Below are positions 9,380-52,600 of a stretch of DNA of 64,000 nt, piece after piece. This stretch comes from Phorcus lineatus (Eukaryota > Mollusca > Gastropoda > Trochida > Trochidae): positions 3,829,027-3,893,026 of the forward strand of contig OV121093.1 of assembly GCA_921293015.1 (NCBI GenBank). Direction: 5' to 3'. The translations under genes were made by a program, and so were the position numbers. Position 1 is the stretch's first letter, and the number at the start of each line of letters is the position of its first letter. The notes under the pieces are model-generated. The model was not told the DNA's origin. It did not search any database and saw only the letters and a list, made by a program, of their open reading frames with translations.

Positions 9380-10350
9380 TCTTCTGTTGTCATCACATTA
9401 ACCCCCTTCCTGCCAGTTTTATAGAGAACATCAGGGTGCTAGGAGAGCAGGACACCGGGGTGCACCATTAACTGTTTTCCTGGAGTCTATTGCATCTAGT
9501 CCAAATATTAACCCTTTTCCTTTGTATTCCAGCCCATGTTAACAGAACACAGCACAACCTAACTAACCCTTTCCCTACTTGTTTCCACTAATATTAAGTA
9601 TAGTGAAGCGTATATACATTCAGTTACTAATCACTTAATCTTGTAGCTATTCTTACATTACCAGTTCTTCTTGACCACCTATTTAAACTATATCTAAACT
9701 AACCTTGATATTAACCCTTCTCTGCATGTTCCTGAGCACATCAACCATAACATTTCTCATTCTAAATCATTGGCTTAAATAAGCTCTAACTTTACACTTA
9801 ATACAGCTCACTGCTTCGAGAGCTCCCATAACATCAACCCGGATATAGGGGTGCACTTAGATAAGCTTAAACTTACTTATCACTGCTGATCACTATAAAA
9901 GCCTTTTCTTCATTACCACATTAACCCTTCCCCTGCCTGTTGTAGGTCAATGTAAGGAGAGCTCCTAGCACGTCAGCCTGGAGATAGAGGTGCACGATCC
10001 CGAATAATGCTTGTTTTCATAACCTTAATACCCTTCTTCTGTCATGATCACAACATTAACCCTTACCCTACCTGTTGTAGGTCAATGTAAGGAGAGCTCC
10101 TAGCACGTCAGCCTGGAGATAGGGGTGCACGATCCCGAATAATATTTGTTTTCATAACCTTAATACCCTTCTTCTGTCATGATCACAACATTAACCCTTA
10201 CCCTGCCTGTTGTAGGTCAATGTAAGGAGAGCTCCTAGCACGTCAGCCTGGAGATAGGGGTGCACGATCCCGAATAATATTTGTTTTCATAACCTTAATA
10301 CCCTTCTTCTGTCATGATCACAACATTAACCCTTACCCTACCTGTTTCAG
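9380..10350 (+). repeat. Tandem copies of the E1 acceptor and exon edge (135-bp unit)
   Basis: Three near-identical units have their pseudo-acceptor TGTTGTAG ending at 9945, 10080 and 10215. The real acceptor ends at 10350, so spacing is exactly 135 bp throughout. Each unit holds about 80 bp of intron plus ~55 bp matching the start of E1 (GGAGAGCTCC...GGAGATAGGGGTG). More degraded matches lie at about 9390-9470, 9515-9545, 9720-9750 and 9805-9860. In the frame used by E1, a CAG codon is TAG in all three clear copies, so they would be poison exons if used. Confidence 0.85.
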
Positions 10351-10686
10351 CTCATGGCGAGGAGAGCTCCCAGCACATCAACCCGGAGATAGGGGTGTAC
10401 TACCCCGGGGAGGTGTTTGTGTCCCAGAAGAATGGCCACCTCCTCCTCAACTGTTCCTCCCCCTCTACCTCCAAGGGGGGCGTCGCCCAGTTCAACTATA
10501 CCTGGCTAAAGAATGATGAACCTGTGGCAGATGTCAACCCTAAAATCAGACTTTTTCAAAACGGGTCCCTTTATATTAAAAAATTCAGGAAGAGAAAACG
10601 GAAATCCGATGAAGGGGTGTACACATGCATTATCAAAGATGGAATCGGCAGCTTCATCGCCAAACATGTGCGGGTGCAAGTTGCCA
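10351..10686 (+). CDS. Exon E1: complete Ig domain 1
   Basis: The acceptor CTGTTTCAG ends at 10350 and the donor GTGAGT starts at 10687; the exon is phase 1-1. It reads an Ig domain with LLLNCSS (B-strand Cys), YTWLKND (C-strand Trp), NGSLYI and DEGVYTC (F-strand Cys). Possible N-glycosylation sites are NCS, NYT and NGS. This is the only Ig domain in the gene encoded by a single exon. Three 135-bp tandem copies of its acceptor and first ~55 bp lie directly upstream. Confidence 0.9.
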
Positions 10687-13600
10687 GTGAGTACAGTTTT
10701 AGACTTCATTTTGTTTCAGGGTTCTGTCGAAGTTTTTTTTCCCAGGTTCCTTTACACGCTTTTCACGATGAGCGAAATCTTGTGGAAGGTAAACTTTGAT
10801 TGGTTGATTACACACGGTTTTATGTTTTTCAGCTTGTTAATTGTTGCCTGGGGACTTTTTGGTATGATGATTTATACAAAAATGTTGCTTTTGTAGTTAA
10901 AAAAAAGAAGTTGACATTCCTTAAACCATTATTTCAGATATTGTCAATTTATAGAGTAACAATCAGTTCAGTGTTTTGAAAGAAAGGGAATAAGTGTTTT
11001 GGGGGAACTTGCCCATATTCCACCTGCGTTCAGCCATGAAAGTCTTTTCATTCTGAAGTTCAGACAGTCAGCTTCACATTTCATACATGCACTGTGGATA
11101 GAAATCCATGAAATCAGTAAATATTAGTTTGTCCAATACTCAATACGATTGCCCTTACCCATGGCCTGTGGTATGTAGGGGACAGGATGGTGCAGTGGTT
11201 AGCAAATAAGAATTTGATTAATTCTTGAATACTTTCCGTCTCTATCATTTATCTTATAATGTAGGTAATTGTTATCAATTGTGGGATTCTGTTTTTAGAT
11301 AGAAGTGAAGTATTTTAATGAGATTTACATTATTAAGAAGAACGAGTAGCATCAAAATAACGTATCAATGAGTAGCATCAAAATAACGTGCTATGTCTAT
11401 TCAGAGGTTGAGCTTCGCGAGTTTTACATCATGAAATGTCTGAAATAATGAATTCTAATATGACATCACACTGTTACCAAGGGGACAGGCGCTTCCATGG
11501 AGCCGCTCAACATATAAGTGATCCTGTTTATTGCATAAATTAATATAATTTTGTCATATGATGATGGATAGAAAATCTGTCAAATTTTCACAAATACCAT
11601 TTTTATCTCGTATCTTTAGGTTGAAAGGTTAAATTTTCACTCATAGCTAGTCTCTCTTGAAAATATGACCACTCTACCTCACTCAGTGACATAAATGTGC
11701 TATTAGTCTAGAAATCTATACATATATAGACAATATTTGAAAAAGAGTTTACAAGTACACAGAGCCACCATTACTCCAACATGTTTCATTGATATCTTTA
11801 AAAAAGTTATTATGTTATGATGTCACAATACCATTGACATAACAATGGTATGACGTCACAATAAAGCAAGCGGTAGGATGGACACAATATTGAATTCATA
11901 GAGGAAAGAATTGTTATTATTCTTAAGCATTAAGTTGAGGCTTTAACATTTTAATATATATATATGAGTGGGACTTTCTTGAATTGCTTTGTTTTGTTGA
12001 TGATGTTGCACTGCTGAGAGTCCAACCATGTTCCACAAACATCATGCTGATGAGGTCCTAAAGACCGAAACAGCTGGCTGTCCATGGATATATATCTCAT
12101 TCACCATATCTTTTATATATTCTCTAATATTCTCTAGTACAAAGAGAGGATTCTATTTAGCTTCGGCCCATCATCTTGTTAATTGCATTAAGTGACAGAA
12201 AACTTGCTGCACTTTTACCAGTCTGTTGAATCTAATAAAGAGTACATGAGATAATGACGTAAAACGATATAATATCCCAAAATTGACAAATTAAAATTGA
12301 CAAATTTAGGATAAATGTTTTTCATTTAAAGTGAAATTGCGGTATTTTTTGTCAAATAACGGGTCTAAAGGAAGCAAACAATTCCTCAAGTTACATGCTA
12401 AAATAAAATATTCATGACATACATAAAAAACAGAAATGACTCCCCAACATTTTTTTTCACAACATACTCTTTAAAGGGCAGTAGCATGGGTGGTTTTTAG
12501 ATGAATAAAGTTATCTCATGAAAACAAAAATAAGTGTGATCAATTGGAAGACAATGATTTTTTAATGAAAAGAAGAGATTTTAGAATGAACAAACCTTGT
12601 TCAGGCTCTGCAAAGCTGTTTCCCTTCATCAATCAATTGAAAAGTCTTCACCTGAAAGTGCCTGCCATTTATTTTTATTTGATACTTGATAATTTCTCCT
12701 GAAACTTAGATAACCAGGTTAAGTAAGGAGATGTTTGACCAATTGGACAAAATATAATTATTATTAACTAGTGTTTAGTTTGGAAAAATTTGAGGGATTA
12801 AAGTTCCCTAAAATAGAAATGCCCTTTGATGTATTGCAAAGTAAACATTAGCAAGGAAGCTCAGATGGATCAACATATGAAAAGTTAAAGCAGTAAGAAT
12901 TTGAAATACAAGCTATAAAAAATGTAAAAGTGAAGACTCGTCAGAAATTGTAAGGAAGTGTAACGATTAACCAATTGAACTGATGTGAAACAGCAAGTGA
13001 GGTTTTGTCAAGAGGAACCTAAACATTAAAGAGAGCACCTGTCGAGAACAAAGAACTGCCCTATATTGAGGGATCTATTTAGAACTGGAGCGTTAAAACA
13101 AGTCACTGACCATAGCTTGCAGAACTACTGGGCAAAATGCCAATTCCCCCATCATGCATTGCTCTGTTTGAGGTTGCTGAGGTCACCGTGCGGAGTGGTC
13201 AGTGCTTATCAGCCAATCAGGAGGCCTGAATATGAACTGCAGGTTATCTGGAAGCTACTGCGTACATAGAGGTTTACTGGAGGTGACCTTTCGAGAGATT
13301 GACCCTATGAAACTAATTGTGGACATCTCCAAATGATAGTTTGTAAAGCAAAAGGCAAATCAAGCCATGGGCTCAGCATCATTGTCTGTAGTAGAGAATT
13401 GCTTTACATGCAGTAAGGTTTGGGTGCAATGCTAACTGTATTTCAGTTCAGTACCACCCACTGTTGACTAATTCCAGCCAATGCTCGCAGGTTCAACCAC
13501 AATGCATAGTCACAAGGGTGTAGGGATTTCTCCCTGCAGTAATACAGTTAAACCTAAAATCACCTTGCCTATATTATTAAAGGGATGTGGTTTGGACTAA

Positions 13601-16600
13601 AATTATAAAGTGCAAATGTTTCCCCGTTTTTTGTAATTACTCAAAAAAAACATGATGCAATATATATAGTATATATAACTTCCTTTCTTGAAATATTCTT
13701 AATTTTGATTAAGCAGAAATAAGGGTTGATAATGGGAGGGATATTTGAGAGTGAAATCAGATAGAGTGATGGATTTCTATACCATTAAATTGCAGTCAGT
13801 AAAAAGATTTACATTAATAAAAAAATATTAGTGTTTTGCTCCTAACATGATCTTTTTGACATTTTGGGAAAAGAGGGAAACCAACCCATCTCCATTTAAG
13901 ATATCGCCAACAACTTACATCTAAAAATGTGAAAACATTTGTCATTTAATAAATGTGTGCATGCCTAACAATTTCTAACAATGATTTGAGATGAAATAAC
14001 AGAATCAATTGATGATTTTTGTCATAAAGGACCCTAGTTTGGCTAATGTTCCTGTGTGAGACACTTAAAACAATAAAATAATGATTAGGGATGAAATAAC
14101 AGTATTAATTGATGATTTTTGTCATAAAAGACCCTAGTTCGGCTTCTGTTCCTGTGTTAGACACTTGAAACAATAAAATAATGATTTGAGATGAAACAAC
14201 AGAATCAATTGATGATTTTTGTCATAAAGGACCCTAGTTCGGCTTATGTTCCAGTGTGAGACACTTGAAACAATAAACTTGAAACAATAAAATAATGATT
14301 AGAGATGAAATAACAGTACCAATTGATGATTTTTGTCTTTTAAAAATTCCTTGGTTAATGTCTGGCAAGATCTGTAAGACTTAAGTAGGTGGAGCTCGGA
14401 TGTCTTCGTATCGCTGTATAGTTAAAGACATGACAGGATATCTGGTGAACATCAATTTCAAGTTTTTAAATAATGAAAAATGTATAAATTTTCGGGTAAT
14501 TATTTTATAGATTTCTTAGTTTTAGGCAATAAAGTTTCTTTACACAGTGGCCACTCCGTAAAATGTATTACTTTCCACCTACAAATGACATTTTATATCA
14601 ACATAACCTTTTGAAATGATGGTGTCAACATTTAAAAGCTGCCTCATAAGAAAAACTGATTAAATATTAACAGAGTGAACGGTATATCTTTGTCTCATCA
14701 TCAAATCCTGATCTTCAAGGCAAATGACAACAAGTCATTTAAAGTTCAAAAAGTCATTTACGTTATATTTTTTGTAAATTTACGAAGATTAAGTCAGTTT
14801 TATGTCCAACATAGCTGTGGTAAGATTGAAAGTTTTTTTGTCTCTGAAATTAGAAAATGAAATGTTGTGAGGGGATGATTAGGGAATTGAGTCCATTTTT
14901 GGAAAAACGTAGAAGATGATGGGAAAACTTGTGCACAGCAGTGCTTTGATAGCTCTGATATTGAAAACTGGTTACCACAAAAGTCATTTGTTATGCCTTA
15001 TACAGTAAATAAGTAAAAGATTTAGTCTTGCGAGAGATAAATTTATTTACCTGAAAAGTGTTGTTGAATTATTTCATATGATTAACTCTCATGTTATATC
15101 TACCACTACTCGTCCAATTTGAAAAGGGATGTTCTGGGGTTAACCATTGGAATTTGCTAATTTTGTGAGTATTTAGACAAAATTTCTGGTGGGGGGGGGT
15201 GAACCTCCTGAACCTAACGCCAGTTCTTAAGACTAAATTTTTCTAGCACTGACTTCAACACAGATATATGGAAGTTTAAGAACCTCTACTTTTGCCGATA
15301 ATGTGATTCTAAATACTAAAGTGTTTCGTTTGTTCATTTTCTGAATTGCACTTACGTATCTATCATGTAGGTTTAATTGATATCCATAGAAAAATGTGCA
15401 GGCTTTCTTATGAAAATGTGGTATTTTAAAGAGGGTCTCCTATCAGCTATGGTCCACCATGTTGCTTTGAGGGGAAAATGACATGCATATGGCGCTATCC
15501 TTGTACTAATTTCCTAATGTGATTAAAATAGACATTATGTATTGATAGAAAATCCACAAATTAACCAATGATTTATGATAAGATTAATCATCAATGCCCT
15601 GTAATGCCGTAGCATGGTGTTTCATGCTCACAGCACTCATGGATGGCTTCACTTCTCATCCTTGTTTTATTTTACTGAGTTTGCCCTCTATTTAATCGAG
15701 GTGAGGTGAGGTGAGGTGAGTTGAGTTGGTGTTTAACGCCGCTTTCAAGATCATTTCACTTATATCGCGGCTGCTAGTATTATTGCAGGGAGAAAGCCCG
15801 CAACACCATTGTGGCTATGCATTGTGGTGAAACCTGCGAGCATCGGCTGGAACTAGCAAACCATGGGTGGTACTGCGCTGAAATTCAGACAAAGTTGCCG
15901 AGCCCCTGGCGGGATCTATTTAATCTAGTTGTGGAATCAAAATCAACAAAACTGTTATCATCAGTACCATGTTTCAGTTTTGTTTTGTTACAATTTATGT
16001 ACCAATAACATACCTGTATAAATGTAAATGTCCCCTTGATTTATTTCTTCCCACAAAAAAGATCCCGATAGGAATGTCCTTTTAATATCTTGTTTTGTAA
16101 GTGCTAAATTATCCATTATTGAAAATATTTCGTATATCTAAACCTATGTATGACGAGTAAACATTAAATTCCATTGTAGATTGATATAAAGAATGTGTTC
16201 CCAAATAAAAGCCTTTACATACCGAATACAATTAGGTTCTGATCTTAAGTAAACATTGGATTCCATTGTCAATCAATATACAAAATAAAACTTCTATCTT
16301 CTGAAATCAAAATTTCTTTCATGACGAGTACAATTGGGTGCAGATCTTAAGTAAACATTGAATTCCATTGTCAATCAATACAGAAAATAAACTACAATCT
16401 TCTGAAATCAAAGCCTTGATTATGACTAGTAGTAGATGGTGTTGATTTTATGTAAACATTGAATACAGATAACTTAAACTTTCTGTCAAGAATATCCTTA
16501 TGCTAGGAATAAGGGTGGGTATCACTCCTCATTTTCCTATCGCAATATATAGACGATATTATATGAGTTCATTACAAACTATGTTTAGGACACAAGTACC

Positions 16601-19600
16601 TAAATATTAGTATTTCCCGAGCCAGAGCCAAGGATATAGTGATATTTAGGCACGAGTGTCGTCAACATAGTATGTCATGGGCAAGAATGTGATATTCTGT
16701 TTATTACCGAAGTCGCAAAATCAAAGGAAATAATCAAAATCAACCTCCTAGCATGGGCGGGTTTACCTGCTGCTGTGACATTTGTAATCCAACGTCATAG
16801 GTTATCATGACGTCAAAGCATAGTTTGTGACATGACGTCACAATGAATATTTTGCCCTAGCGCATTGTATCAAAAACATGAACCCCGATATGATTTCCTT
16901 CATAGGTAATAAATTGTGATACAGAAAAGCATATTGCAATATATTTGTACTTTCATAATTTATTTTTTCCAAGCTGTCTTGACTAAATAGCAGCAATTAA
17001 AACAGTGTTCAATGCTCAACTGGCTGTCATTTTGCAAAAAGAGATAATTCAGTGATTTTAACATGTCTGTGCTATTGTCACTTTGTTTAGAACTTTCACT
17101 AAAATCAGTTTTACCTTTCTCTGCAATTTTACATGGAAATTGTTAACTTGAAAAACATCGAGATATTGGATATTTTCAGGAGAGTGTACCGGTACGTATC
17201 ATGTTATTCCTGTATTGCAATATACGGATATTTTGATAATACCTTGCACCTTTAGTTAAGAAAATAGTGTCGTTCATTTATAAAGAATATTCACCAAGTG
17301 TCTTGTGAGGGAAGCAATTAATAAGTAGACATGGGAAATATAACAATGCAAAAGATTTAAGAAGAAAACTGTCTATTTAAGCAAGAATTCAATTTTGTAG
17401 AGAACAAGTTATCATCAGAATTAAACAGCAGGTGGCAGAAAGGTTATTATGCAGAGAAACACGATACCTCTTAGTGTTATAATGTATTCATTAGGAAAAA
17501 TCTCTTTGTTTGGATTTGTATTTGGCTGAGATGGGGTTTTAATGACTATTAGAAATAAGCTACATCCATATGTTGATTAAAAGAACAAATCAAGTCTGTT
17601 TTCAACAGTAATGTCACACCGGGTATTTAAGGACATCTTTGAGGACATAGTTCTTTGAATCAAACGCCACCTTCTTTGTTTCTTCCCCCTCCGCATTCAT
17701 TAATAATTACTAGTACTTGTTCCTATTCATTGGCTAGAATTGGGTCAAGAAATTCCTATCTTCTATTTATACCACCGTGGGTTGGAAAAATCAATAGCAC
17801 CACTGCTAGCTGCACAGTGTTGCAAAGTAACCACAGCTCTTACTTGTAGCTCGGGAATGGCCATTGGTGTCGTAGAAAAGAAGGGAGCTGGTTTGTAAAA
17901 AAAAGGGGAGGGTGGTGTATAAGTGCAAATATGACTTTTATGACACTGGTTGTTGTGCAAAGTTGCCACAGCTCTTGCTTTTAACTCGGGAATGGCCAAT
18001 GGTGTTGAAGAAAAGAAAGGAGCTGGTTTATAAAAAAGGGGAGGGTGGTGTAAAAGTGCAAATATGACTTTTATGACACTGGTTGTTGTGCAAAGTTGCA
18101 TTTTTGAAAAAGCTCTTGCTTGTAGCTCGGGATTGCCATTAACCTTGTAGAACAGATGGGCAGGTGAAAACATCGGTATTAATTCAATGAAATGTGTTAT
18201 TTTTAGGGTTCTTTGAAATACTACATAAATGCCCTGAAACATATTGTAAACTTCGCCTCTTTAATCAGGTAGAGGCATTATCATTGTTCTTGGAAATCTT
18301 TGATTCACAACTCATCTATTTTCTGAAACATTTTATGAAGACCACTTTTAGACTTGAATGCGCTGAAATATGTAAATAAATCGTAGTGCCTCAAATGCAG
18401 AATAATTTCAGTGAAACATTTTCCTCTTTTATCAACTAGAAGAATTGGCATTAATTCATGGAATCTGTGTATAAGTGCCATATAATGCTTCTTTAAATCA
18501 CAGAAATTTGTGAATGAAGTTTGTCCCTCTAATGCTGCCTTAATTCACAGAAACTTATTCATCAATGGCATCTTATTCATGCTTTTTTAAGTCACTGAAA
18601 ATTGTTATAATGACATCCTTATAAGTTTGCACTTTTCGCTGAAATCAATGAATGCAGCACCTTTTAATTCTGCATTTATTAATAGAATCTTAACTTTGCC
18701 TCTTAAATCAAGTAAAAGCAATAACATTAATTGTGGCATGCCTGCATTTTGAATGCTGAGAGCACTGAATAATTGTCACCCCTTTAATCTTGAATCAATT
18801 CACAGAAATATCACAGCCTCTCAAATGATGAATTTAATCCCAAAAAAATAGTTAATCATTGTCGTCCCTTTGATCTTGAATCATTTCACAGAATTATCGC
18901 ACCAACTTAAATGCTGAATTAATTCAGTCCATGTTAAAGTCTATGAATCAATGGGTCCAATGATCTTTGATCAATTCACAGAAATATCACAGCCTCTCAA
19001 ATGCTGCATTAAATCTAAAAATTAGTTAATCATTGTTGTCCCTTTAATCTTGAATCATATCACAGAAATATTTTAGCAACTCAAATGCGGCAATTATATA
19101 CAGAAAGAGTTGGTCTCCGTGGCTGATAATGTGATGTTAGTTTGAGAGAACCACTCTGGATTAGCGAGACGATACCTCCTTCCCTCGCCCTCTCGTAGGG
19201 TTTCCGTCAAATAATCAATAGTGTATGATGCAACTGGGTATAGTTGCCATGTTTTGGAGACCAAGACTCGCGTGAATGAGGAGATTAAATATTCTTTCAT
19301 TTGATCACGTGAAAGGTTTAGTTGTGGTTCCTGTGATACATTTTGTTATTTGATCCTTTGAAAGATTTAGGTATTTGATCATTTGACAGATTTTGTTATT
19401 TCATTGTGTGAAAGATTTTGTTATTTGATCGTTTGACGGATTTTGATGTTTGATTGCGTGAAAGATTTTGTTTTATGAACCTTTGAAAGATTTTGATATT
19501 TGATCGTGAGACAAATTTTGATATTTTATTTTGTGAAAGATTTTGTTTTTTGATCCTTTAAAGATTTAGGTATTTGATCGTTTTACGGATTTTGTTATTT

Positions 19601-22600
19601 CATTTCGTGAAAGATTTTGTTATTTGAACTTCTGAAAGATTTAGGTATTTGATCGTGAGACGGATTTTGATATTTGATTGTGTGAAAGATTTTGTTATTT
19701 GATCCTTTGAAAGATTTTGATATTTAATTTTGTGAGAGATTTTTGTTATTTGATCCTTTGAAAGATTTTGTCATTTGATCATTTGAAAGATTTAGGTATT
19801 TGATCCTTTGACGGATTTTGATATTTAATTGTGTGAGAGATTTTGTTATTTGATCAATGAAAGATTTTGTTGTTTGGAAGGTTCAGCCATAGTTTTTTTC
19901 ATGTTATTGTATGATATCTGAGCCTGCCTCACTTGGTTGGTCAATATTCTATGTATGTCATATTTCCTAGTTTTGTCACATCCTATATCTGTCCACTTCC
20001 TAGATCTGTTACATCCCTGTCACATCCTATATCTGTCCAGTTCCTAGATGTGTTACATCCCTGTCACATCTTTTATCTGTCCAGTTCCTAGATCTGTTAC
20101 ATTCCTGTCACATCTTTTATCTGTCCAGTTCCTAGATCTGTTACATTCCTGTCACATCTTTTATCTGTCCAGTTCCTAGATCTGTTACATTCCTGTCACA
20201 TCCTATATCTGTCCAGTTCCTAGATCTGTTACATTCCTGTTGCATGTTATATCTGTCCAGTTCCTAGATCTGTTACATTCCTGTTGCATGTTATATCTGT
20301 CCAGTTCCTAGATCTGTTACATTCCTGTCACATCCTATATCTGTCCTGTTCCTAGATCTGTTACATTCCTGTCACATCCTATATCTGTCCTGTTCCTAGG
20401 TCTGTTACATTCCTGTCACATCCTAGATCTGTAAAGCTCCAGGATCTGTTATGTTTATAGAACGGTCACACTCCTAGTATTGTTATGTTCCTAGATCTGT
20501 TACACTACTAGAACTGTCATACTTCAAGATCTTTTACGATCCTAGATCCGTCAAGCTCTTGGGTCTGTCACGTTGGTAGACCTGTCAAACTCCTAAATCT
20601 GTTATACTCTTAGATCTGTCACTTGAAAGTTACTGTTTGTTATACTTCAAACAAGTGTCTGTCTTCATTATGACCTATTTGGTTCGACTTTAATGGGACA
20701 TATGTTTCATGTATATCACTTTACCTAGCATTGATGTGTCTTTTCAGTGTCCATCAGTATGTCCGATGTCCAAAATGTCCAACTGTTCAGTTCTCATTTA
20801 GTTGACAGTATAATTGTCCCAAGTTGAAAATAATCCTCACGTTTCTCAGGTGCTGTTGTTGTTGATCTCTTGATTTGTCAAGAAATAATAGAAATTTTAT
20901 GTATTTTTAAAGTTTCTACAAATAAGTCTGTCCAGGAACTGTAACTCTTCAAAGATACAAGATATTCTTAGCTATATTCATTATTTATGCCGTAGGCATC
21001 ACGATCCTTTCTTTCATAATGCAGAGAATTTGAATCCAACTAAAAACATTAATGTTTTTATCCTTGCAAAATGGTAAGATAAAGAAATAATTAAAGAGAA
21101 TCCTATATTTTATACCAACGCTCAAAGGCATCTCTTTGATACCTTGTTTCAAACTCGATAAGGGAATGAGGGTGGATCAGATAGATTCAGAGAGGGTTTA
21201 ATGAAAAAGAATAATTTGATAGGTGTGAATAGATAGACAGGAATAGATTTGACAAAAAGTCCAAGAAAAGGCAATTATTGAACTTTATTTGATGAAAAAG
21301 AAAAGACTTCCATGGATATAGAATAGGTTGATTATTTCAAGAACTTGTCAAAGAACATGTCACCTGAACAATAATTAACTATAGTTCACCTTTTAAAAGA
21401 GAAAGAAATTAAGTATCGCTAAAGCCTGTTGATTGCATTGTCAGTGTCATTTTATTGCGTATATGTTGACGGCAGTCCACCAATGATGTTCAGTCACTAG
21501 TTACATGCTGATCTACCCATAAAACTTGAACCGATTCATGTCCACATCAAGGTTCCTCATCAGCTGTCATTTTGACTCCAAACCACCCAATCTCCCCCTC
21601 CCCATAGCTTATCCACTCCCCATAGTTTATCCACTCTCCATAGCTTATCCACTCTCCATAGCTTATCCACTCCCCATAGCTTATCCACTCTCCATAGTGG
21701 ATAACTCCCCATAGCGTATCAACTCCCCATAGCGTATCCACTCCCCATAGCGTATCCACTCCCCATAGCTTATCCACTCACCATAGCTTATCCACTCTCC
21801 ATAGCTTATCCTGTCTCCTCCCTCTTAATCCCTCCCTCCTTTTGCTTTCTGTAAATTACCTAACTGTTGCAGTTCCTCTATCTTCCTGAACCACACCTAT
21901 GGTGAATTACCTGACACAGCTTGAGTGTTCCCCCAGTCACCTTTCTACCTCACTCTGTTGCAGTTCCTATATCTTCCTGATCCTCACTTACGGTACTGTG
22001 AATTACCTCACCTGGCTCAACTTGAGTGCTCCCCTCGTCACTTTTCTACCTGACTCTGTTAAACCACACCATAACACCACCACCCATCCCACCGACTCTT
22101 TTCTGGCCCTCTCCCACCAGTCCCCCCACCCTCCCCTTGTCACGTGTCACTTACGTACGACACTAACTCCCCCTCTGCTTGGTACCAACTGTATCTTTGA
22201 TCCCCTCCTACTCCACCAACTCTCTTCTGGCCGTCTCCCACCAGTCCCACCTTGTAATTTAAATGTATTTTACTCAGCTCATTTGCACCACCTAGCTGAC
22301 TTTCCAGTTCTAATTGTATACTTATCTCTTTCCCTGTATGGACCCTTCTTCATCCGACACACTCGTCACACACACACAACATTTAACTCGCCCTCTTTAT
22401 AGTACCCACTTAACCTTACTCAAATCACTTATCCATTCTACCCCACCCCTAACCGATCTCTATACCACTCAGCTCATTAGCTCAACCTCAGATGGAGTCA
22501 TCCATTATACCACTGTCTTCCCCTTCTTGGATCCTTCTTCATCCACTCCACAAAGCATCATTGTTTTTTCCTCACTTTCTATTTAATCTGCCTTCACCTC

Positions 22601-25600
22601 GAATTTTTCCACCTTCCTTCCTCATCTTTGTCTACTGTTTTCCCCCACCTTCATTCATCCTCTCATCATTTTTGTCACCTATATCATTGCATGTTGTTTT
22701 TCCCCACATATGCATGTTGTTTTTCCCCACCTACGCATGTCCTTTTTCCCCACCTACGCATGTCATTTTCCCCCATCTACGCATGTCTTTTTTTCATCCC
22801 AAGGAAGTGTTCCACCCAGCTACTTCCTGGAGTCTCCCCAACAACCCCTAGACTGTCATACAGACCCTATGGCGAAATAGTAAAGGAGCCTTCTTAACTC
22901 TAGAAAATGTTGGCAAGTCTAGTTGCATCAGCCATAGGTTGAAATTAAGTATTGTTCAGGACTCCTTTTTTTATATTATTTCATACCAAATATTGAATGC
23001 AATACCAAATATTGAGCAATAAATTCATTATGAGATTAGTTTTCAAGGACTAAATTTATTAGTCTTCTTCGACACATCTTACAGTTCATTTCTTTTTTTC
23101 ATCAACAAATCAACCCTTTCCTCTTACCCTGTCAATTTGTTTAAGATTTCAACAAACCACTGTCTTAATAACCTAATGTTTCTACCCATCTCTCTTGACC
23201 ACTCATAAAGTACAACTTTACCCTTAAAGAAAATGTTTCAACCCTCACACCACGAGATCATGGCGAGCCCCCTTCCTCAAATCCCTTATCTGGAATCTTC
23301 ACAGAGTTAATATCCATACCCAACCTCATCCTCCATCCTTAAACTCAGAGATCCACCCTCCAACCCCCCTGAATAACAGTGCTTACCCTCATTTCCATCC
23401 ACCTCCTCTCTTACATCTTCCCCTAACCCCCTCCTCCTCTCCCCCCCCCCCTCATCCCCAGTGCAAGAGAGCGATCCAGCTAACCCTATTCCTGCCTTTG
23501 CTAACCCATCTTGACCTATATTTTTTCTGTAGGGGAGAACAAAGGCATCTCCTCTACGGCAGGCAGGCTGAAAGTAGTGCTAATGGTCACATGACCGCAT
23601 GGCGACCAATAAGAAGAGGGCAGTGCCTGCTCAATCAATGGGACGGAGTGATAAGGATGTTTTCCTGTACTGTCCAGGCTGAGGGCAAGATCTCGTATTA
23701 CGGAGCCTTTGTGAGGAGGAACTATTTTTTTCTCTTGTGACCTTTAACCCCAAGCGACCTCCGACCCCCTTGTCAGTGTCCAGTCAATGTTGCTTCTGTT
23801 TGGCCCTGTTGACTAAGCTACTGTACTGCTTAGCAGTTCTTGTAAACAGGTCTCGAACGAATGACCCGGAGATTTTGAACATTCTACTCTCCCGGCTAGC
23901 ATTGTATGGTCCTTTTTTTACGAGCACTGATCCTGTGTTGCATGAAAGGGGGCTTAATAGATTTATGACTCCGGTATTTTAGTTTATTTGTACTTTTCTC
24001 TGGCTATGTGAGAACCAGGATAAATGAAAGAAAATCTGTTTTATTGAATGGTGATAATTACGTAGTTGACTTGGGTATATAATTCTGGCTGAAAGAAAAA
24101 TGTTTGTGATTTCATGGATTAAGAATAACTTATTTTACCAATTCCAAATAAGTTTATTATTCTGTCATATTCTTCCTCTTTTTAAAGGAATGTTGTTAGT
24201 TTTCTGTTTTCGGAAGTTAAAGAAAATTTAATGTGTAATCTGATGTCGGGGGAGGTTATTTTTGTCGTTGGCAAAATATGATTGAAGAATATAACTATGA
24301 TTTGAGGTAAATAATTATCAAAAATTTTCTATACAAATTTGATTTTTTAGAAAATGAATATTAAAATATCGCTATAAATTGTTAACAAACATGAAAAAAC
24401 AATAAACATGCTTATGAAATATATTTCTTTTTTTCCCAAAGGATTTCATCCTAATGGAATGGGTTACAAACAGCTGAATATTAAGTTAAGCTTTTTGAAA
24501 GCTTATGGAAATAACTTAGGCGATTTAAATGATAACATATCAAACAGCATTGCTGATTGCTCAACTAACTTTGATTGCATCCAATCATAGATCTACATTT
24601 CTACACCAAGAAACTTTCGTATTATGACAGAGGTTGTATAGGAATTTATGACAGAGCTACCTCGGTTGGAAGAGAATGGCATGATCGATTTGTCGTAATC
24701 TACAGTAGCTATTGAACACCTCAGTGCTCCTAGGTGAAGTTTAGTCATAGTCAATTAGCTATAGATTATAGACTCGAACCTAGACCAGGGCCTCGATTTC
24801 TCTACATTTTAATGCTAATTGAGCGACAACTTATTATATACAGTAAGTAGGAACAGGCTCTACTTGATCACCCCAGTACTCCGAGGTGAAATTATGTCAT
24901 ATAACAGGTATATATCATAGACTCTGTCATAGACCAGGGCCTCGATTTCTCTACATTTAAATGCTAATTGACGGACTACTTATTATCTACAGTAAGTAGG
25001 TACAGGCGCTACTTGATCACCCCAGTACTCCGAGGTGAAATTATGTCATATAATATGTCAGAAAATATATCAGGATATTTATATCGTGAGGGTCCATGAT
25101 ATATCGATGTATTGCAACAAGAGACAATATATCCAGTTTTTTTTATATCCTGACACTATTAACAAATAACACTGTTTTTTCTATTATAGATATTACAGTG
25201 ATAAGCCAAACAGAAAATGATATGATTATGTTTGATATTTAATCTGTTATTTCACAGTCTCTCTGATTTAATTATTTCCCTTCATGTAAAGTTTATGACA
25301 GTTTGCAGCTAAGAAATCAAATTGATGTCTTATATCCTATCCATTCTTCTTTCATAAACTGTAAGAAATCGGGATACATATTGTATCTCAGCCATGGTAT
25401 AGTGATGATTATTGTCTCGCAGGTTCCTTCGCTGTTCTTCCATAATATATCGCCTTGCCTAATAAAACTGGAATCAGGATATATTTTCTCGTCACTTAGG
25501 CCACGAAAAACAGCTCTCCTAGCTTAAGTTAAATCATTTATTAGTAATATATTAAATGAGCTGGGTCAAAAACAGTGACATAGTCCAGGCATAGGATTGT

Positions 25601-40600: not shown

Positions 40601-43600
40601 TTATAAGTTTCACCACTATAAGACAATCATAAGTACGAAATAAGCTTAAAAAATTGTGTTGGCACATGGTCCTATGCATAACTCAGTTGACGGTGCTCAC
40701 GGTGAAGTACAGCAACATCGGTTGCAGCTCGCTGTATGGTTTGGTTAACGATGTCATTGCTTGATAAACTAAGAATTTGAATGATGGTCCCCTTCCCCAA
40801 ACTGAGACAAACTTGGTGTCTATTTTGGCAAGAGGCCTCTGTTCAGCCAGCAGGAAATGGGTCCTGCTAAAGCAGAGGGTTGGTGGTGATCTTCTAGCGA
40901 CAAATAGGTCGGCATGGGTTAATAATGTTGGTGGAGCCTTGAGAGTGGAGGGATAAAGTAAGCCTTCAAGGACAAGCCCTTTGCAATCTGCAATTTGAAT
41001 AGTGCTTAAATCGAGTTATGGTCTAATACTTAATCATCTTTTTTGTTGTTGTTGTCTGTGTCCCCAGTTTAAGGACAAGTTCCTTCCTACTTTCAGTTAA
41101 AATCGTGCTATGATGGTATTGTGGCACAATGCTAAAGGTCCATTACCATATTGTTGTCTGTGTCCCCAGTTCAATGACGAGTAGCTTCGTAATGTTGTCT
41201 GTGTCCCCAGTTCAAGGACGAGTAGCTTCATATTGTTGTCTGTGTCCCCAATTCAAGGAAAAGTAGCTTCATATTGTTGTCTGTGTCCCCAATTCAAGGA
41301 AAAGTAGCTTCATATTGTTGTCTGTGTCCCCAATTCAAGGACAAGTCCTTTCAGTTCTTTGGCTAGAATCATGCTAAGAGGGTATTATGGCCCGATGCTA
41401 AATGGTCCATTACCATATTGTTGTCTGTGTCCCCAGGTCAAGGACAAGTCCTTTCAGTTATTCGGCTAGAATCATGCTAAGAGGGTATTATGGCCCAATG
41501 CTAAATGATCCATTACCATATTGTTGTCTTTGTCCCCAGTTCAAAGACAAGTCGCTGGTGATCTACAACGTGGAGATGGAGCACGCCGGCTACTACCAGT
41601 GCGTGGCCGAGAATAGCATTGGCTGGACCAGCGCCATAGCCAAGCTCGTCATCTGGGAAAACAGTGAGTTGTCTCCCCTTACTTTAAAAAGGCAGTAGCA
41701 TTTTTAAAAAATCATTATCCTCACGGTAAAAATATCTAATTCCCGACCAGAAGATCTGTAGTCTTACAGTAAAGAATCAAGTGTATAGCAAAAAACATTG
41801 TCGGCCATTTTTGTGTGAACACCTTTTAACATTTGAAGAAAGGAAATGGATTCACATGGCTTAAACAATCATTGTATACTGTTTTAAACTGCTTCATTTG
41901 TTTAAACATTGTCTTGAATTAGAAATAGAATAACACTTTATCAGACATTGCCAGTTACTAAGTTTTGCCTGTTATGTTCCAGACGGTTCGCCAAAACCAC
42001 CAACGGGTCTGAAGGCAACGGCGCTGTCGGACACTCAAGTATTCATCCAGTGGAACAAGTCTGTTCTCACGAAGGATCTGCCTATAATCACCTACGTTGT
42101 CACCCTCATACCAGAACAAGGTATGTCTCTTTCTTGATACGTGTTCTCCTCAGAACTAGCTTTTATGGTCAACTTTAAGTGGGGGCAGGATTAGCGCAGT
42201 GGTCAGCGCATTCAGCTTCGGATCATGAGGTCTATGGTTCGAATCCCGCCAGGCTCGGCAACTTTGTCTCCAGTAGAGAACTGTTCTACACGCAGTCAGG
42301 TTTGGGTACAATGCTACACTGAATTTCAGCGTAGTACCACCCATGGTTCGCTAGTTCCAGCCGATGCTCGCAGGTTTCACCGCAATGCATAGCCACAATG
42401 GTGTTGCGGGTTTTCTCCCTGCCATAATACTAGCAGCTGCGATATAAGTGAAATAATCTTGAAAGCGGCGTTAAACAAAAATTCACCTCACCTCACCTCA
42501 ACCTTAAGTGTCTTCAGTAGCGCTCCTTTACATTTTGGGAATATTTTTCTGCAATTGGTCACCATCATACCATTAGCTGCTTAGATTTTCCTGTTCAGTA
42601 ATCATGGTCAGGGGCATTAGCATGTTCTTTTTAAAATTTTATCTCATCAAAATGTTTTCAACAAGTATGAGTTTATGGTAAATGCATTGTCTTCAGAGGG
42701 TCGAACACCTCATGACTCAAACCAATTTTCCATGGTCGTAGCAGAAAGTATCAAATATCAAGGAAAAACTCCCCAACACCCAAATGTTAGAACTTCTTCC
42801 CAACTGTTGACATCATGACCAGGCCTTTGGAACACAAACTCTTCTTCAAAGTTTATGTAATCAAATACATAACTGCAGAACACGATTGAAACATTTCCTC
42901 ACAACTTCATGTGGATTCATAATTGTCAGCCATTTTCTGACACACATGACTAAAGGGACGTAACTCTCTGTTGCTAGATGAGACAATAACTGATTGAAGC
43001 ATACATAAAATCAACGACTTGAGTTTATATCTTAACACCAACTAATCACAAAAACTTCTCTTAAGCAGAAGGTAGTGAACTGCTAAGCGACTTATTAATT
43101 AAAAAGCTGTATTTATGTCATTTAGCGGCCGAATAAAATTTTATAAATTGAGTCCACGTCAAATTAGGATCCCTTTAAACGAATTCCGAAATCGACCATC
43201 GGGCATTTCACTCAATCTTTAACACCAACTAATCACAAAAACTTCTCTTAAGCAGAAGGCAGTGAACTGCTGAGTGACTTCGTGGGCGGCACCGAGGACA
43301 TCTTGAACAAGACGGTTGACGGACTGAAACCCTTCACCAAGTACAAGGTCTACGTCATGGCCTTCAACAAAAAAGGAGCCAGTCCAAAGTCACAGCAGGT
43401 CATCGTCCAAACCAAGGAAAACAGTGAGTAATTACCGACAGTTTCCCCTACATAGCTTTTTGTCCTTCTTTGTCTCTTCTATGAACTTTGCATATATCTA
43501 TACTCTATTAAAAAAAGAATTAAAAAATAAATATATTCTTAAATGGAAATAGCAAAATGTTGACCAACTGTTTCCAATATATAGCTTTTTCTTCATTTTC

Positions 43601-46600
43601 TTCAACAAATGTGTTTTTCTACATTTTTTTTTCTTCTAAAATAAATATATATAAACTTGAGAAAAAATGATAGAAAATAGATTTGCTAAGTTTACAGGAG
43701 ATTAAGTTAATCAATTTGAAACCATTTATGGTATATACATAGATTGATATACTTAGATTGATATATATATAGATTGATATACTTAAATTGATTTACATAG
43801 ATTGATATACTTACAATGATTTACATAGATTGATATACTTACATTGATTTACATAGATTGATATACTTACAATGATTTACATATATTGATATACTTAGAT
43901 TGCCAAGTGTACCAAACATAAATCAAACATTTAAAATATATCAAGAAAAAAGGCTTTATTTTATGGAGGTCATGGAGGTTCTAGTGAGTCTAGATTGTAT
44001 TGTATTGTTGCTTCCAGAAGTAAATTTATGCTAGCTGACACTCAAACACTCTCTCCACCATAAACTCTACACTCTTTTGAAACATTATGTGATCACATTT
44101 CATCACAGTTCCCCTTGGAGCCCCGGAGATCACGCTGACGCCAACCGGTACAAACCAGATCCGTGTGGAGTGGAAGGAGATGCCGCCTAGTGTCAGCCAA
44201 GGGGAGATAACCCAGTATAAGATCTACTACCGCATGAAGTCTGCCAATATTCATCACAGTGGCGAGCATGTCAACACCGTGGACGGATCCAAGAGATACT
44301 ACAACATCAAGGGTGAGTGTTTTGGGTTATTTTTGGGAATCAACTTAAGTTTCTTCTTGCAAGGCAAATTAAAAAAAGGACAAAGTATTAGATGGCAAAT
44401 GAGGTTGAAAACTATTGAATGACTTTAAAGCCTAAAGGAAAAGAAGTTTGGGAAGGAAAGAGAACAACTTATAAAGAATGGCAGCAATAGCCTTGTAGGG
44501 CATTATATATATATAATAAATTGTGCAGGTCCAAATGCAATGGCTCATCTATGCATTACTGGATAGTCCGTTCATAAATCTCAAAATTGTTGCAACTTAT
44601 CTACAGAGAGGGCCCTGTTTTAAACAGAGGTCTCAACAAGAAGGCAGGGGTGGGGAGGGGGGAAGGTTAGGAAAAGGCCATTTATGAGAAGATGTATGCA
44701 GGCAGATTAGAAGACCAATTAATTCTTTTGACACGAAGAAGTAAATGATGTAATGAAATTTAGACAATAGAGTTAACTATGATTCGAAAATAAAAAGCAG
44801 ATTAGAAGGTTACCTTCGTTACTTAAGATCACATTAGTGTTTAGTGGAATGATAAATTCTTTTGACGCTAAGAAGGAAATGATTTACCCAATAAGGATAC
44901 CTCAACTAATAATATTGTAAGCACAGAGGTGGTTGGTGGTTTCTAACTTCTTGATCTTTTCCCCCATGAGTTGGTGTTAAAATAATTATATTAAGTTCAA
45001 CAAATAACTAGTGTATGGAAGAAGTAGATGATTTGTGCAGGAATTTTGTAAATTTGCTTATTCTGTTCTAAGGGAGATAACTTTAGCCTGTTAAAGGGAG
45101 ATAACTTAAGCCGCTTAATGGGAGATATTTGATCTTGAACTAGCTTAACAGAAGTAAGCTGGAGTTAACACTGAGAACAAAACAAATTATATACTTTCAC
45201 AGGGCTTTGATTAGAATTAAGTAAGTAATAATTATGCAGCTGTAACAATCTGCCTAATAATATGAAATGTTCTCGTTCGATTGCTTCTTTCATTTTAGGG
45301 ATTGATTATTACAAAACTTAATGTGTCTGTCGTTTATATGTTTCACCCATCTCTTGCCAAAAATAAAAAGAACACAATTATTTTATAACTTCATTGGCTG
45401 TATGGACTGATGACATAGGATAATAAGCATTGACACAGCAAATGCAAAAGATAACACAAGATGACAAAATTGACAAAAAGCACATGCTTATTTAATGCCG
45501 AAAGGTAAGGATACTGGCAAAACCTAAGCTTCAGGGGTGCCTGTTGAGATCTGTTCTTATATTGATTAAAATTTAATGCTTTCGTAGATGTCATAGCAAA
45601 TGCAAAAGATAACAGAAGATGAAAAAAGTGACAAAACAGGCATGTTTAATTAATTCCCAAGGGTAAGGACACTTGCAGCACCTTTACAAACAGACCTGTT
45701 TTTATATTGATAAAAAAAATTTAATATTCCAAATGCTCCTGTAGATGTGGAGCCCAACCGGGAGTACGAGGTTCGAGTTCTGGCCAGCACCAAGAAGGGA
45801 TTCCCAACGCTGTCTGAGGACCAATGGCCCTGGGTCCAGCTGAGGACGCCCAAAATGTCCTCAACATGTATGTACTCGTTTCATTCAAGGGTCACACTAT
45901 TCAAACTCGTAAGATGAATGTTTGTTGTAAATAAGACTAAGTGATTGGGTTTGGTGAGGGATCCAAAATTATTTAATGAACCGTTTAATTTCTTTACTTT
46001 CAAGTTATTTGAGAAAGGTATATATAAGCCTATTATGAAGATGAACTTAAAGAAGTTTAGTAATACTAGGTTTAACCATTTAATTTCTTTACATTCAAGT
46101 AATTGGAAAAAGGTATATATATATAAGCCTATTATGAAGATGAACTCAAAGAAGGTTAGTAATACAAGGTTTAACCATTTAATTTCTTTACATTGAAGTA
46201 ATTGGAAAAAGGTAAACACGCATTATGAAGATGAACTAATAGAAGGTTAATGATACTAGGATCCTCCTTACTATCATTCTTCATATAATTTTTTTAAAAA
46301 TTCATCAGCCAAGGGACTACTGTTGAAGATTTACTAAAGCTTGTCACATGTTTTCAGTTCCAGTTCCCAGCCTTGATGTCAATCGTCTGAATGCCTCGAC
46401 CGTGAAGGTCAGCTGGGAAGTCAATGACCCTGAGAACAAGGTCACAACCTTCGATGTTGTCCTACGTAATCTCCACACGAGCATCGTGGTGGATCGTCTG
46501 AGCGTGTCGCCTCCATCAAACCATCATACCTTCTACAAATTGGGTAGGTTGGAGCACTTTGTAATACTTTTATTGAAATGATAAGGGATTGATATATAAG

Positions 46601-49600
46601 ATATATTTTGGATGATTATAAGAATGTTCCCTTTGGATTTTGATGCCAGTTCCTCAACTACAAGAACATAATTTAGATTGAAATACAGGATGAGAGAAGA
46701 TGCCAGTAGCTGTTCTCAGTTTTAGGTCCTTGATTACCTCCCCTTTGTCATTTTACAGCAGTTATTGTCTAGTCATGAATTTCTCTGTACAGCTGTAACA
46801 AAAAGGGTACCATTGTAACCAATGACAGTTTTAAATGTTAAAATGTTTATTCAAAAGATGCAATCATGCAAATTTGATTAAAATTTATTTAAAAAGTGAC
46901 TCATTGAGAATATTAAACTCATTTCAGAAAATGGGACGCAGTACGAGGTTACTGTGGAGGCCAAGGGAGACGCTGGAGAGTCCTCAGGGGTGGTCGGAGA
47001 GGAGTTCCGCACGGTCGAGACGAGTCCCACCCTCCCAGCGGAGTCCCTTCGAGCCATGACCATCAACCCGACAACTCTCGTCCTGACCTGGATAGAGCCA
47101 GATCAGCCGCACCACATCAAGTTCTACGAGATATGCTACAGCCTCATCAACACCGAGAAGAAGACCTGTATCTCCAGGTGAGGACCAGAGAAATAGATGA
47201 TGCCAAATGTTGTTCCATTCTGATCAAAGTTCCTGAATGAGGAGTATATCCGAACGTATACTTTAACAAACTGGCTGTCAACCCTTCTCTGCTAAATTTT
47301 GATTGCTTTAGTCTTGTTTGTAATGTCAAATGAAAATGATAAATGCTATCGCAGTATCTCCAGGTTAGGGCTCCAGATATAGAGGATAGGTATATGTTTC
47401 ATATATATACCTATATATATTGTATTTTGAACAAAGTCGTCAGCATATGCAGCCATGATCTCATTGATGGTAGATGTTCAGACATTCCAGGGTGTCAACA
47501 TTTCTTTGTCACATTAGGAATGTCATAGAGGAATCTTGACATCATAGCATTGTTTATTATGTCATAGAGGAATCTTGACATCATAGCATTGTTTATTATG
47601 TCATAGAGGAATCTTGACATCATAGCATTGTTTATCATGTCATAGAGGAATCTTGACATCATAACATTGTTTATTATGTCATAGAGGAATCTTGACATCA
47701 TAGCATTGTTTATTATGTCATAGAGGAATCTTGACATCATAGCATTACTTTAAATTTCATAGAGGAATCTTGACATCAAAGCATTGTTTATTATGTCATA
47801 GAGGAATCTTGACATCATAGCATTGTTTATTATGTCATAGAGGAATCTTGACATCATAACATTGTTTATTATGTCATAGAGGAATCTTGACATCATAGCA
47901 TTGTTTATTATGTCATAGAGGAATCTTGACATCATAGCATTACTTTAAATTTCATAAAGGAATCTTGACATCAAAGCATTGTTTATCATGTCATAGAGGA
48001 ATCTTGACATCATAACATTGTTTATTATGTCATAGAGGAATCTTGACATCATAGCATTGTTTATTATGTCATAGAGGAATCTTGACATCATAGCATTACT
48101 TTAAATTTCATAGAGGAATCTTGACATCAAAGCATTGTTTATTATGTCATAGAGGAATCTTGACATCATAGCATTGTTTATTATGTCATAGAGGAATCTT
48201 GACATCATAACATTGTTTATTATGTCATAGAGGAATCTTGACATAGCATTGTTTATTATGTCATAGAGGAATCTTGACATCATAGCATTACTTTAAATTT
48301 CATAGAGGAATCTTGACATCAAAGCATTGTTTATCATGTCATAGAGGAATCTTGACATCATAGCATTGTTTATTATGTCATAGAGGAATCTTGACATCAT
48401 AGCATTACTTTAAATTTCATAGAGGAATCTTGACATCAAAGCATTGTTTATCATGTCATAGAGGAATCTTGACATCATAGCATTGTTTATTATGTCATAG
48501 AGGAATCTTGACATCATAACATTGTTTATTATGTCATAGAGGAATCTTGACATCATAGCATTGTTTATCATGTCATAGAGGAATCTTGACATCATAACAT
48601 TGTTTATTAAGAAATAGAGGAATCTTGACATCATAACATTGTTTATTATGTCATAGAGGAATCTTGACATCATAGCATTGTTTATAATATCATAGAGGAT
48701 TCTTGACATCATAGCATTGTTTGTAATGTTGCGACACAATGATAAACGATATCACACAGTGATGATTGCCCACACTGGTAGATAATCCTGCAGAAAGGTG
48801 CTGTTGAATCGTTTGATCAGTATAAGACGAATAGATATTGTTGGTTTTCATTTTCGAGTTTACTGACAGTGACACGTTGTCCATCGATCTTTATGTTTCA
48901 ACTTGATAATATAATGTTTTGGTCACTTTAGTGTATTCTATATATAAATATGAATGTCAGCCATGAAGTTAAAGAAGTTCCACCAGGATTTATTGCCATT
49001 ATGGGCCCTGACCTGATTCGATTGAATTCATGGACGAAACAGGAGGTCATAGATAACTAATTTAGGACCATTACCAAGTGTTCCCTTCAATGAAGGCTTT
49101 GCATGAAAATATGAGTCCTGAAAGATATTAACAGAGTGGATACTGTCACAGGTAAAATATTGAAATCTTTGTTCCCATCCAGCATGACGTCGAGCATCAA
49201 GGTGTCGGGTCTGACCCCGTTTGCCAGGTACAGATTTGTCGTGAGGACCCACTTCATGAACAAGGACATACAGACCAGCCAGCCCTACGTCGCTCGCACG
49301 GAGGACGATTGTGAGTACATTCATTGCAGTTTATTGTATTTTTAATGGTGAAATATGCCATTGGTCTGTAGTCCTTGTTTTCACTGAGTAAAATTGCAGT
49401 GAGATTCTACTGAGTGAAATAACCCTACAATCATATGACGTCACCTTTGACGTAAAAAAACAATTGAATGACGTCATGAGATGACTAATAGCAAGCGGTT
49501 TGGCTACTCCTTTCATAAAGTTAACGACATTTAGGATGTTGTAGGAAATATGATAAATAGTGTATTTGACATTTCTCTTCAAATACCATGAATATCTCGT

Positions 49601-52600
49601 GATGTAGAAGTTTATATATTTACACCCGTGGCTGCTTCACTGGATAAGATATGCATGGTATTTGACAAGATATGTGACATGTCCTCTTATGTATTTCAAT
49701 GGAAGATACATAATATTTTGGTTCTTAATTACTACAAAAGTGTTACATTCGACAAGACGTGTGTCATGTTCTCTTATGAATCAGAATTATTCCCACAGCT
49801 GCTAAAGTGGCTGAAATGTCTCCAAACTAAAACTTAGTGTCAATTTAGCGTCTTCCTAACTCCTACACCATCTGACAAGGCTGTATATCATCTCACTTCC
49901 TATCCCCAGTGCCGAGTGCGCCGACAAACATCACATACATCGTGGTGTCACCGGGGACTGTGGAGCTGCACTGGAAGCCGCCGGTGTCCCCGAACGGTGT
50001 CATCACCTCCTATATCATCTTCTACAACAACAACGAGAAGGTCCCGGACACCATGTGGAGGAATCTCACCCAGACAGGTGAGTGTTCTCAACAGCTGTTT
50101 GGTCTGAGTTTCACCGAGACAGGTGCCCCCTGATTGACCAGTTTAATTGAATCTCGTCTTGTATACAATCAGGCACTGATTTGGCTCTGATTAATTTCAT
50201 TATAAGTAACAATCCATCTGCATTGCTGGTAGGTGCCAATACACCCCGAATTCAAATTTATACTGATCTGTTGTGCAAAACATATTTCAAGTGGCCAGTT
50301 AATATGGGAAACACATTTTGTCTAAGTATAACACTTGAAAATTAATATTCATGTTCAGAAGAGTTCATGCAGGCCAAAGAATGACTCATAAATGTACAGG
50401 AGACTTCACTTGGGGCAAAGGCTGAACTTTGAAATGTGACCATTGTATGTACAGGGGAATTTACGCGTGCCACTGTGCAAGAGCTGACTGCTGCGTCCTA
50501 CTACTTCAAACTGAGCGCGTGCACTAGAGCAGGTCAAGGTCGTCAGTCTCCGATCATCATCGTGTTTCCCATGAAGAACTGTAATGAACACGTGCAGCAC
50601 GAGGCTTGTGATACCACCACAGCAGCTGTAGGACAAGGTATGAAAAAAGATGATATTACATGGGTGTCCATGACTTACTTTGTCTAAGACATGAGTGCCT
50701 TAATTTTAGTATTTCCCCAGCGCGATGAGGAATTTACTGATAATATACTGATAATTGGGCACGAGTGTCTGGAACATGGTATGTAATGGGCACAAATATG
50801 ATATTCTGGTTATTACCAAAGTTGCAAAGTTAAAAGAAATTATCAAAATCAGCAGTTGTAGGACAGGGTATGCAAAGTGCAGAATTACTCAAAAGATTTA
50901 ACATAAACTGTCTCACAGTTTTCATATTGTAACCGGGTGTGAGTGGGTTGAAGAAATAGTCCAAACACGGGTCACAGGTCAGGAAGGTATATTGCAGGTA
51001 GACCAGACAACTATTTACACCCTGAAATGCATACATAAAACAATACAAAAACGGTTGTTCAAATGTCAACACATTCACAATTATTCCTTAATTGCAAGCC
51101 ACACAATTGCAATCTATACAATATATACACTATACGTGTTATGCAAATACATTTTAGGCTTCATATTAAACAGATAATTATTCAAACCAATAACTCTTAT
51201 TAGGAATTACAATGGTAACTGATAGATTAAGTTTATTACTGTTGATACTATCAACAAGGGAGGTAATCTCTCATTGGAGCATGATGTACATTCACTTGAA
51301 CTTATAACACAAGACATTTTACAACATTATGGATTTACCACAACATCACGACCATAATGTATGCACGGACACTTGATTATCACTTAACGTAAATAAAAAA
51401 CCTATTTACATAATATAACAAGCATTATTCATGTTTAATATACCTTACCCTACGTGTAGCGCAGAGGCGTTATGTACGGTCGCCAAGGACTCGCATGTGC
51501 GGACACATGATTATCACATAACGTGAATAAAAACATATTTACATAATTTAACAAAAACATTAATTATGTTTAATATACCTTACCCTGCGTGTGGCGCTGA
51601 GGCTTTATGTACGGTCGCCAAGGACTCACTGGCATCCAGATAACATTCCTTAATCGAATGATGAAATAATTAACTAATTGGCGGACATAACATTCACAGG
51701 AATTGGACACAAAGCACTTTGCCTAGCAACGATTGATAAGGACTGTTTATCAATACCTGTATACCCTAAGAAGTAAGCCCTGATACAGCAGTTATTAAGT
51801 TGTCTGGCAAGATTTTCTTGAACTCATTACTCTGACTCTTATCATGGATTATGCTTGGATTTTCAAAGCTCTCTTAGTGCTACGACAGTCGTAGGGCAAT
51901 GTTGATTGATGGTACTATCTATCTTAGCGCTAAGGGAGTTTTGAAAATCTAGGCCCTGATGTTATCAAATATGACCTGTGTTATAGATATGTAGATGTAA
52001 AATGGAAAATACAAATTATGATATTAACCGGCTTATCAACACAAGGAATATCTGGATGTTTCTCTTCCTGCAACAGGTTCCCCGTCTCCTCAGCTGGGCA
52101 TCATAGTGGGCGTAACCATTGGCATTGTCTGTATCCTCATCTGCCTCGTTGTCATCATCTTTCGCAACAGGTCAGTTACATCTTTATTCTTTAATGTCTC
52201 CAATTCAGTAGTAACTTCATTCATTTATCTGTCCTTGTCCGTAAGACCTTCGTTCCTTTCTCTCTCCATATTAGTAGTGTTGTTGTTTTTTTCTCCACCC
52301 TGTGTCAGTAGTGTTGTAGTGTTGTTGTTTTTTTCTCCACCCTGTATCTACCTTCCTTTTTCTGTCCTTATGTCAGCAATAATTCCATACTGACAAATGT
52401 TGCTTCATGGATGTCTTCACATTGTTGTATTTTTTGCGTTAAGAGGAGGGAATTTCATTTATATTTTACCTCTTCAAGAGAAATTTGTCCATCCTCATGT
52501 GAACATTCATTTTAGACTTATTACGCTTTCATGTTTTAAGAATGATTTTAATCTGCCAATAACTTTAAGGAACAGTGAACGTAATAAAAGAAAATCAAAT

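Follow-up and report, generated by a model that had tools for sequence, protein, structure and literature searches.

Does the presence of several copied exon edges within one gene mean that exon edges are special targets of duplication? The question is raised by a 64,000-nucleotide stretch of contig OV121093.1 in the Phorcus lineatus assembly GCA_921293015.1 (positions 3,829,027 to 3,893,026 of the forward strand; hereafter, the window), which contains a protein-coding gene of 20 exons, E1 to E20, delineated with a splice-site model and Pfam (10351..55335 of the window, forward strand; E1 at 10351-10686 to E20 at 54754-55335). The original prediction, made from the sequence alone, held that at least eight of these exons have an extra copy of their own splice site, with adjoining exon bases, in the neighbouring intron, and that the recurrence could reflect a local duplication bias or decoy sites retained to tune splicing. 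We find that six edge copies are true likenesses and that exon edges are nonetheless not preferred over the surrounding introns. The explanation that we favour, with a probability of roughly 0.85, is that small local duplications fill the introns and occasionally straddle an exon edge, so that the edges are struck at the intron background rate.

For all 39 junctions of the gene (20 acceptors and 19 donors), copies were scored by the best ungapped match (S) in up to 1.5 kb of the adjoining intron, where the match had to run across the junction and include agreeing bases on either side of it. Strong acceptor copies were detected for E1 (S = 52.5), E7 (S = 44) and E9 (S = 54.5), and short donor copies for E2 (S = 18), E13 (S = 16.5) and E16 (S = 19.5). 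The E11 acceptor reached S = 9.5, and the remaining 32 of the 39 junctions had S = 0 at the main settings. The six copies are real and not chance matches because, among 1,170 tests on shuffled introns, none reached S ≥ 14 (one reached S ≥ 12). With gapped alignment, the scores of the E2, E13 and E16 donor pairs were each reached by 0 of 1,000 shuffles. Three further predicted copies fared worse: the gapped scores of a second E2 donor copy, a donor copy of E15 and an acceptor copy of E16 (55 bp) were reached by 1, 4 and 25 of 1,000 shuffles, respectively, before allowing for the 39 junctions, and were all exceeded by the maxima of 200 shuffles, a yardstick that undervalues the second E2 copy and the E15 donor. 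Under laxer settings, the E15 donor had S of 12-14 in three of four parameter sets and the E16 acceptor had S of 12 in one of four; the second E2 copy stops at the junction and has lost its GT. Given the 39 junctions, these three matches are weak, and we did not count them as copies. Thus, of the predicted eight or more exons, six hold (E1, E2, E7, E9, E13 and E16), with all the E1, E7 and E9 acceptor copies, the first E2 donor copy and the E13 and E16 donor copies recovered as described, whereas E15 is weak and E11, considered probable, is partial: there is a genuine underlying 157-bp duplication that extends to the acceptor, but its agreement with the exon is limited to ATGT.

Where introns are dense in duplications, exon-edge copies that cluster in one gene can mimic a signal, and the informative comparison is with randomly chosen points in the introns of that gene rather than with shuffled sequence. 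At S ≥ 16, copies were found for 6 of the 39 junctions (15.4%), compared to 16.7% of 5,052 random intron points of the gene and 16.2% of 315 pseudo-acceptors drawn from the whole window; the corresponding pseudo-donor control (2 of 20) comprised too few points to be used. Because the control points were 8 bp apart and hence not independent, we also rotated the set of 39 junctions as a block. Across 400 offsets, the mean number of copies at S ≥ 16 was 6.06 (standard deviation 2.23), against six observed; at S ≥ 20, the mean was 5.6 and at S ≥ 30 it was 4.7, with three observed in each case. Four further parameter sets, with 200 rotations each, gave the same outcome, with no overall excess at the junctions. 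On the basis of the random intron points, pseudo-acceptors and rotations, we reject an enrichment of copies at exon edges. The original prediction had named equally frequent matches at random intron windows as the finding that would speak against it, and inside this gene that is what we observed; of the local duplication bias that it proposed, there remains a richness of local duplications in the introns as a whole, in this one window, but not the edges as a special target. Points in exon interiors had a copy in the flanking introns in only about 1 of 872 tests, as could be expected if only those copies survive that leave the coding sequence intact. Among 50 rows reported by Tandem Repeats Finder (TRF), some of which overlap, two cross an exon edge (E1 and E7) and one lies inside an exon.

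The largest of the edge-spanning features is a 135-bp minisatellite on the forward strand (9804..10407) that runs across the acceptor of E1 and 57 bp into the exon. TRF places it at 9918-10397 (period 135, 94%), and self-BLAST extends it to 10407. The copies of the exon start lie at 9946, 10081 and 10216, spaced by 135 bp, with degraded copies at 9807 and 9533, the latter outside this interval. We divided each unit into an intron part (78 bases) and an exon part (57 bases); in the exon-bearing unit, the former was 95-96% identical to the two nearest units and the latter 79%. These two nearest units are identical to each other across the exon part, and the third (9946) is 98% like them, so that the three inner units are 98-100% alike in the exon part, compared to 77-79% for the exon-bearing unit. 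The upstream part of the third unit matches at only 54-58%, because the array begins near 9912, inside that unit. The second array, a 41-/103-bp minisatellite on the forward strand (40966..41556; TRF rows 41147-41346 and 41311-41553), covers the acceptor of E7 together with as many as 17 bp of the exon, and comprises seven acceptor copies (41068-41437).

The other edges show simpler arrangements, all on the forward strand. At E9, a 62-bp direct repeat of 37 intron and 25 exon bases (43032-43093 and 43219-43280, separated by a 125-bp spacer; 59 of 62 positions identical) provides a single copy, with the exon start at 43069, 187 bp upstream of the real one. Next to E11 is an old, degraded two-unit tandem duplication of 157 bp that ends at the acceptor (45431..45748; 95 bp at 81% and 34 bp at 82%) and shares about four exon bases. 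The donor repeats are 24-34 bp long: the E2 donor (31369-31396) is copied at 31670-31693 (offset +301, spacer 273 bp; 18 exact bases, gapped score 37), the E13 donor (47168-47201) at 47354-47387 (offset +186, spacer 152 bp; 79% over 34 bp, gapped score 33), and the E16 donor (50620-50646) at 50850-50876 (offset +230, spacer 203 bp; 24 of 27 identical). The spacers of the E2, E9, E13 and E16 pairs did not resemble the sequence on either side of the pair; these pairs are therefore not clean tandem duplications, or are no longer such. For the E16 donor copy, a clean duplication is doubtful in any case, given that it adjoins a dispersed repeat (50743-50851, matching 16634-16742 at 83%).

These features can be accounted for if introns dense in small local duplications and minisatellites, arising perhaps through slippage, unequal exchange or break repair, occasionally acquire a duplicated stretch that straddles an exon edge and so leaves in the intron an additional splice site, along with a few bases of the exon. 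The extra copies would be near-neutral because splicing would still use the original edge, which adjoins the full exon; they would then gain stops, some would lose their AG or GT, and arrays would expand and homogenise as any minisatellite does. Tandem duplication across the junction, the mechanism suggested originally, explains the E1 and E7 arrays; the E9, E2, E13 and E16 copies are spaced direct repeats (24-62 bp around 125-273 bp). The suggestion that the copies stem from separate events is borne out by their different units and different sides.

It would be an alternative to this explanation that selection keeps the copies as decoy or poison sites, with intact acceptor copies competing with the real site and directing part of the transcripts to nonsense-mediated decay. 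We compiled 14 acceptor copies (five of E1, seven of E7, one of E9 and one of E11, the last added by hand). All 14 have an in-frame stop before the real exon, and 11 retain the AG, which was lost in three neighbouring E7 units. Scored with an acceptor matrix that excluded the parent site and is rough, being built from about 20 sites, some copies come close to their parents; the values were 2.9-4.5 for the four AG-bearing E7 copies (parent 3.9), 2.7 for the E9 copy (parent 2.7) and 6.3-7.5 for the three clear copies of E1 (parent 10.0). The retained AGs, the stops and such scores speak for this alternative. However, the retention of decoys to tune splicing finds no support in the frequency of the copies, which is no higher than at random intron points or in the rotations; three E7 units lack the AG; the matrix rests on few sites; and the lancelet Adh3 and globin repeats discussed below seem not to disturb regular splicing (PMC3087553). 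We consider maintenance of decoys by selection highly improbable. The converse, selection disarming the decoys, was also set aside: the three AG-less E7 units are adjacent and may represent one mutation spread by expansion, which leaves nothing to test.

Several observations nevertheless weigh against background duplication as the whole explanation. It does not account for a copy background that is high in this gene in particular: outside the gene, a copy was found in 1.6% of 1,782 tests (S ≥ 16). The three copies with S between 14 and 20 are all donors, and moderate copies (S of 12-20) outnumbered the rotation means in four settings (4 vs. 1.3, 3 vs. 2.2, 3 vs. 1.1 and 4 vs. 1.2, with the observed number reached in 0.065, 0.37, 0.09 and 0.035 of 200 rotations, respectively), although this excess of moderate donor copies is weak and setting-dependent. 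Between E1 and the nearest unit, the exon side differs at 12 of 57 positions and the intron side at 3 of 78 (Fisher p = 0.002); for duplication and drift to predict this, homogenisation or conversion would have to be added. In the E9 repeat, the 37 intron bases are identical and all three exon differences are synonymous, at third codon positions (0/37 vs. 3/25, Fisher p = 0.06), a pattern that could reflect allelic origin, conversion or chance. The donor excess would suit a mutational bias to exon edges, for example, through breaks or through templated insertions copied from the edge, mainly at donors, and so would the fact that the E2, E13 and E16 donor repeats and the 62-bp E9 repeat enclose sequence unlike their flanks; but the excess varies with the settings, strong copies fall short of expectation (at S ≥ 30) and the E16 copy adjoins a dispersed repeat, so that we regard such a bias as very unlikely. 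An assembly artefact, in which two haplotypes of a very heterozygous animal were joined as false local duplications, would fit the E9 pair, whose identical intron side and three synonymous differences resemble two alleles, and one published lancelet 'mirage' repeat (see below) appears to be misassembled in the draft genome (PMC3087553). Arrays of several diverged units, such as those at E1 and E7, do not stem from two haplotypes alone, however, and the E9 spacer is unlike the stretch before or after the pair; we give the artefact very little credence. The E1 units suggest that homogenisation reaches the intron side of E1 but not the exon. Conceivably, an exon edge is a barrier to concerted evolution on one side only: the units would convert intron sequence as far as the exon, whereas conversions that enter the exon would be removed on account of the stops that they bring in. 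The lasting, near-perfect acceptor copies would then compete with the real site and lower correct splicing of the receptor slightly and tunably; we consider this combination very unlikely.

The phenomenon itself is already described for lancelet genes, and the exon-edge copies reported here are real but ordinary. According to two reports, 'mirage' minisatellites are tandem duplications across an intron-exon boundary in lancelet Adh3 and the globin genes BflGb6 and BflGb9 (PMC3087553), as well as in troponin C and PGBD5 (PMC3902484); they occur at 5' or 3' exon edges, with units of 10-160 bp, many of which retain AG or GT (PMC3087553, PMC3902484). Length instability between haplotypes or tissues and normal mRNA splicing are further marks of the class, and all cases described there are cephalochordate. 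In E1, E7 and E9, too, the repeat unit combines bases from the intron side and the exon side of one edge, and the E1 and E7 arrays, judged by sequence organisation, appear to belong to the same class; only these two are minisatellite-like tandem arrays, whereas the spaced pairs of E9, E2, E13 and E16 are not classed as mirages. In BflGb6, evolution is concerted within the cluster with the boundary unit excluded (PMC3087553), which the exon part of the E1 array resembles, with homogenised inner units and the boundary unit left out, but the intron side of E1 does not. The Phorcus case differs further in that it involves an immunoglobulin (Ig)/fibronectin type III (FN3) receptor gene and several edges in one gene. 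Related changes are found elsewhere. With human CBS 844ins68, splicing strongly favours the distal of the two sites and yields normal mRNA (PMC2630376), but this is one polymorphic insertion and not an array. The 8-bp donor-site duplication rs35854239 at an exon-intron junction of SLC22A1 (OCT1) is very short and does alter splicing, in 38-52% of minigene transcripts, with 0.3-0.6% altered transcript in liver (PMC8137991). In potato RdRp, tandem duplication across an intron-exon boundary led to intron gain (PMC4974935), whereas the copies here lie within the existing introns. Studies of intron gain and splice-site competition could draw on the E1 and E7 arrays, which raise no new question on their own. 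Splice-site copies were not evident in the titles and partial abstracts of the papers listed for protogenin with amphioxus, mollusc and neogenin, and no search joined protogenin with splice-site copies.

The gene model was assembled from splice sites taken from the sequence, with E14 corrected afterwards: its start was placed at 49183 because only then does the frame stay open, the upstream CAG/GTAAAA (49151/49152) breaking it. In this region (49140-49182), an acceptor-like site is joined straight onto a donor-like site at that motif, 31 bp upstream of the E14 acceptor. The 20 exons join into a single open frame, 1,250 codons long, whose only stop is the terminal one; together with Pfam matches to Ig_3 (E = 2.8e-49, four stretches) and fn3 (E = 3.3e-55, five stretches), this bears out the predicted single 20-exon gene. 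E17 encodes one hydrophobic segment, read by eye, that is probably transmembrane; no initial coding exon specifying a signal peptide was identified within the 64-kb window. Receptors of the DCC/neogenin/protogenin class have four Ig domains, followed by FN3 domains and one transmembrane segment, and the predicted domain order fits this class, although DCC and neogenin carry six FN3 domains and the product here shows five stretches. The four-Ig chain of DCC (3laf) matches residues 22-397, but contactin-2 and roundabout chains score higher, and no protogenin chain is among the best 60 of 90 matches.

Points with a local copy, counted in 2-kb bins, ranged from 0 to 58.5% inside the gene (9560-53560), were 0 in four bins upstream (1560-9560) and ranged from 0 to 10.5% in four bins downstream (55560-62440). 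The density of duplications is thus uneven in this one window, but the upstream bins may belong to an intron of the same gene, and we draw no conclusion from the difference. Scans of the window with Rfam (gathering threshold) and for tRNAs gave no match, nor did Pfam at E 0.1 for five flanking or intronic frames. Intron 6 contains an uninterrupted 665-codon frame for a piggyBac-type transposase (35784-37781, reverse strand; Pfam DDE_Tnp_1_7, E = 2.3e-92), enclosed by a 22-bp inverted repeat (35624-35645 and 37858-37879); ends bounded by TTAA were not found in a simple scan. In intron 1, a pyrimidine-rich stretch (22001-24000) has a strong strand skew (GC skew -0.40). Finally, a 35-bp minisatellite of 14.5 copies (53059-53565) ends 16 bp before the first base of E19 and includes no exon bases.
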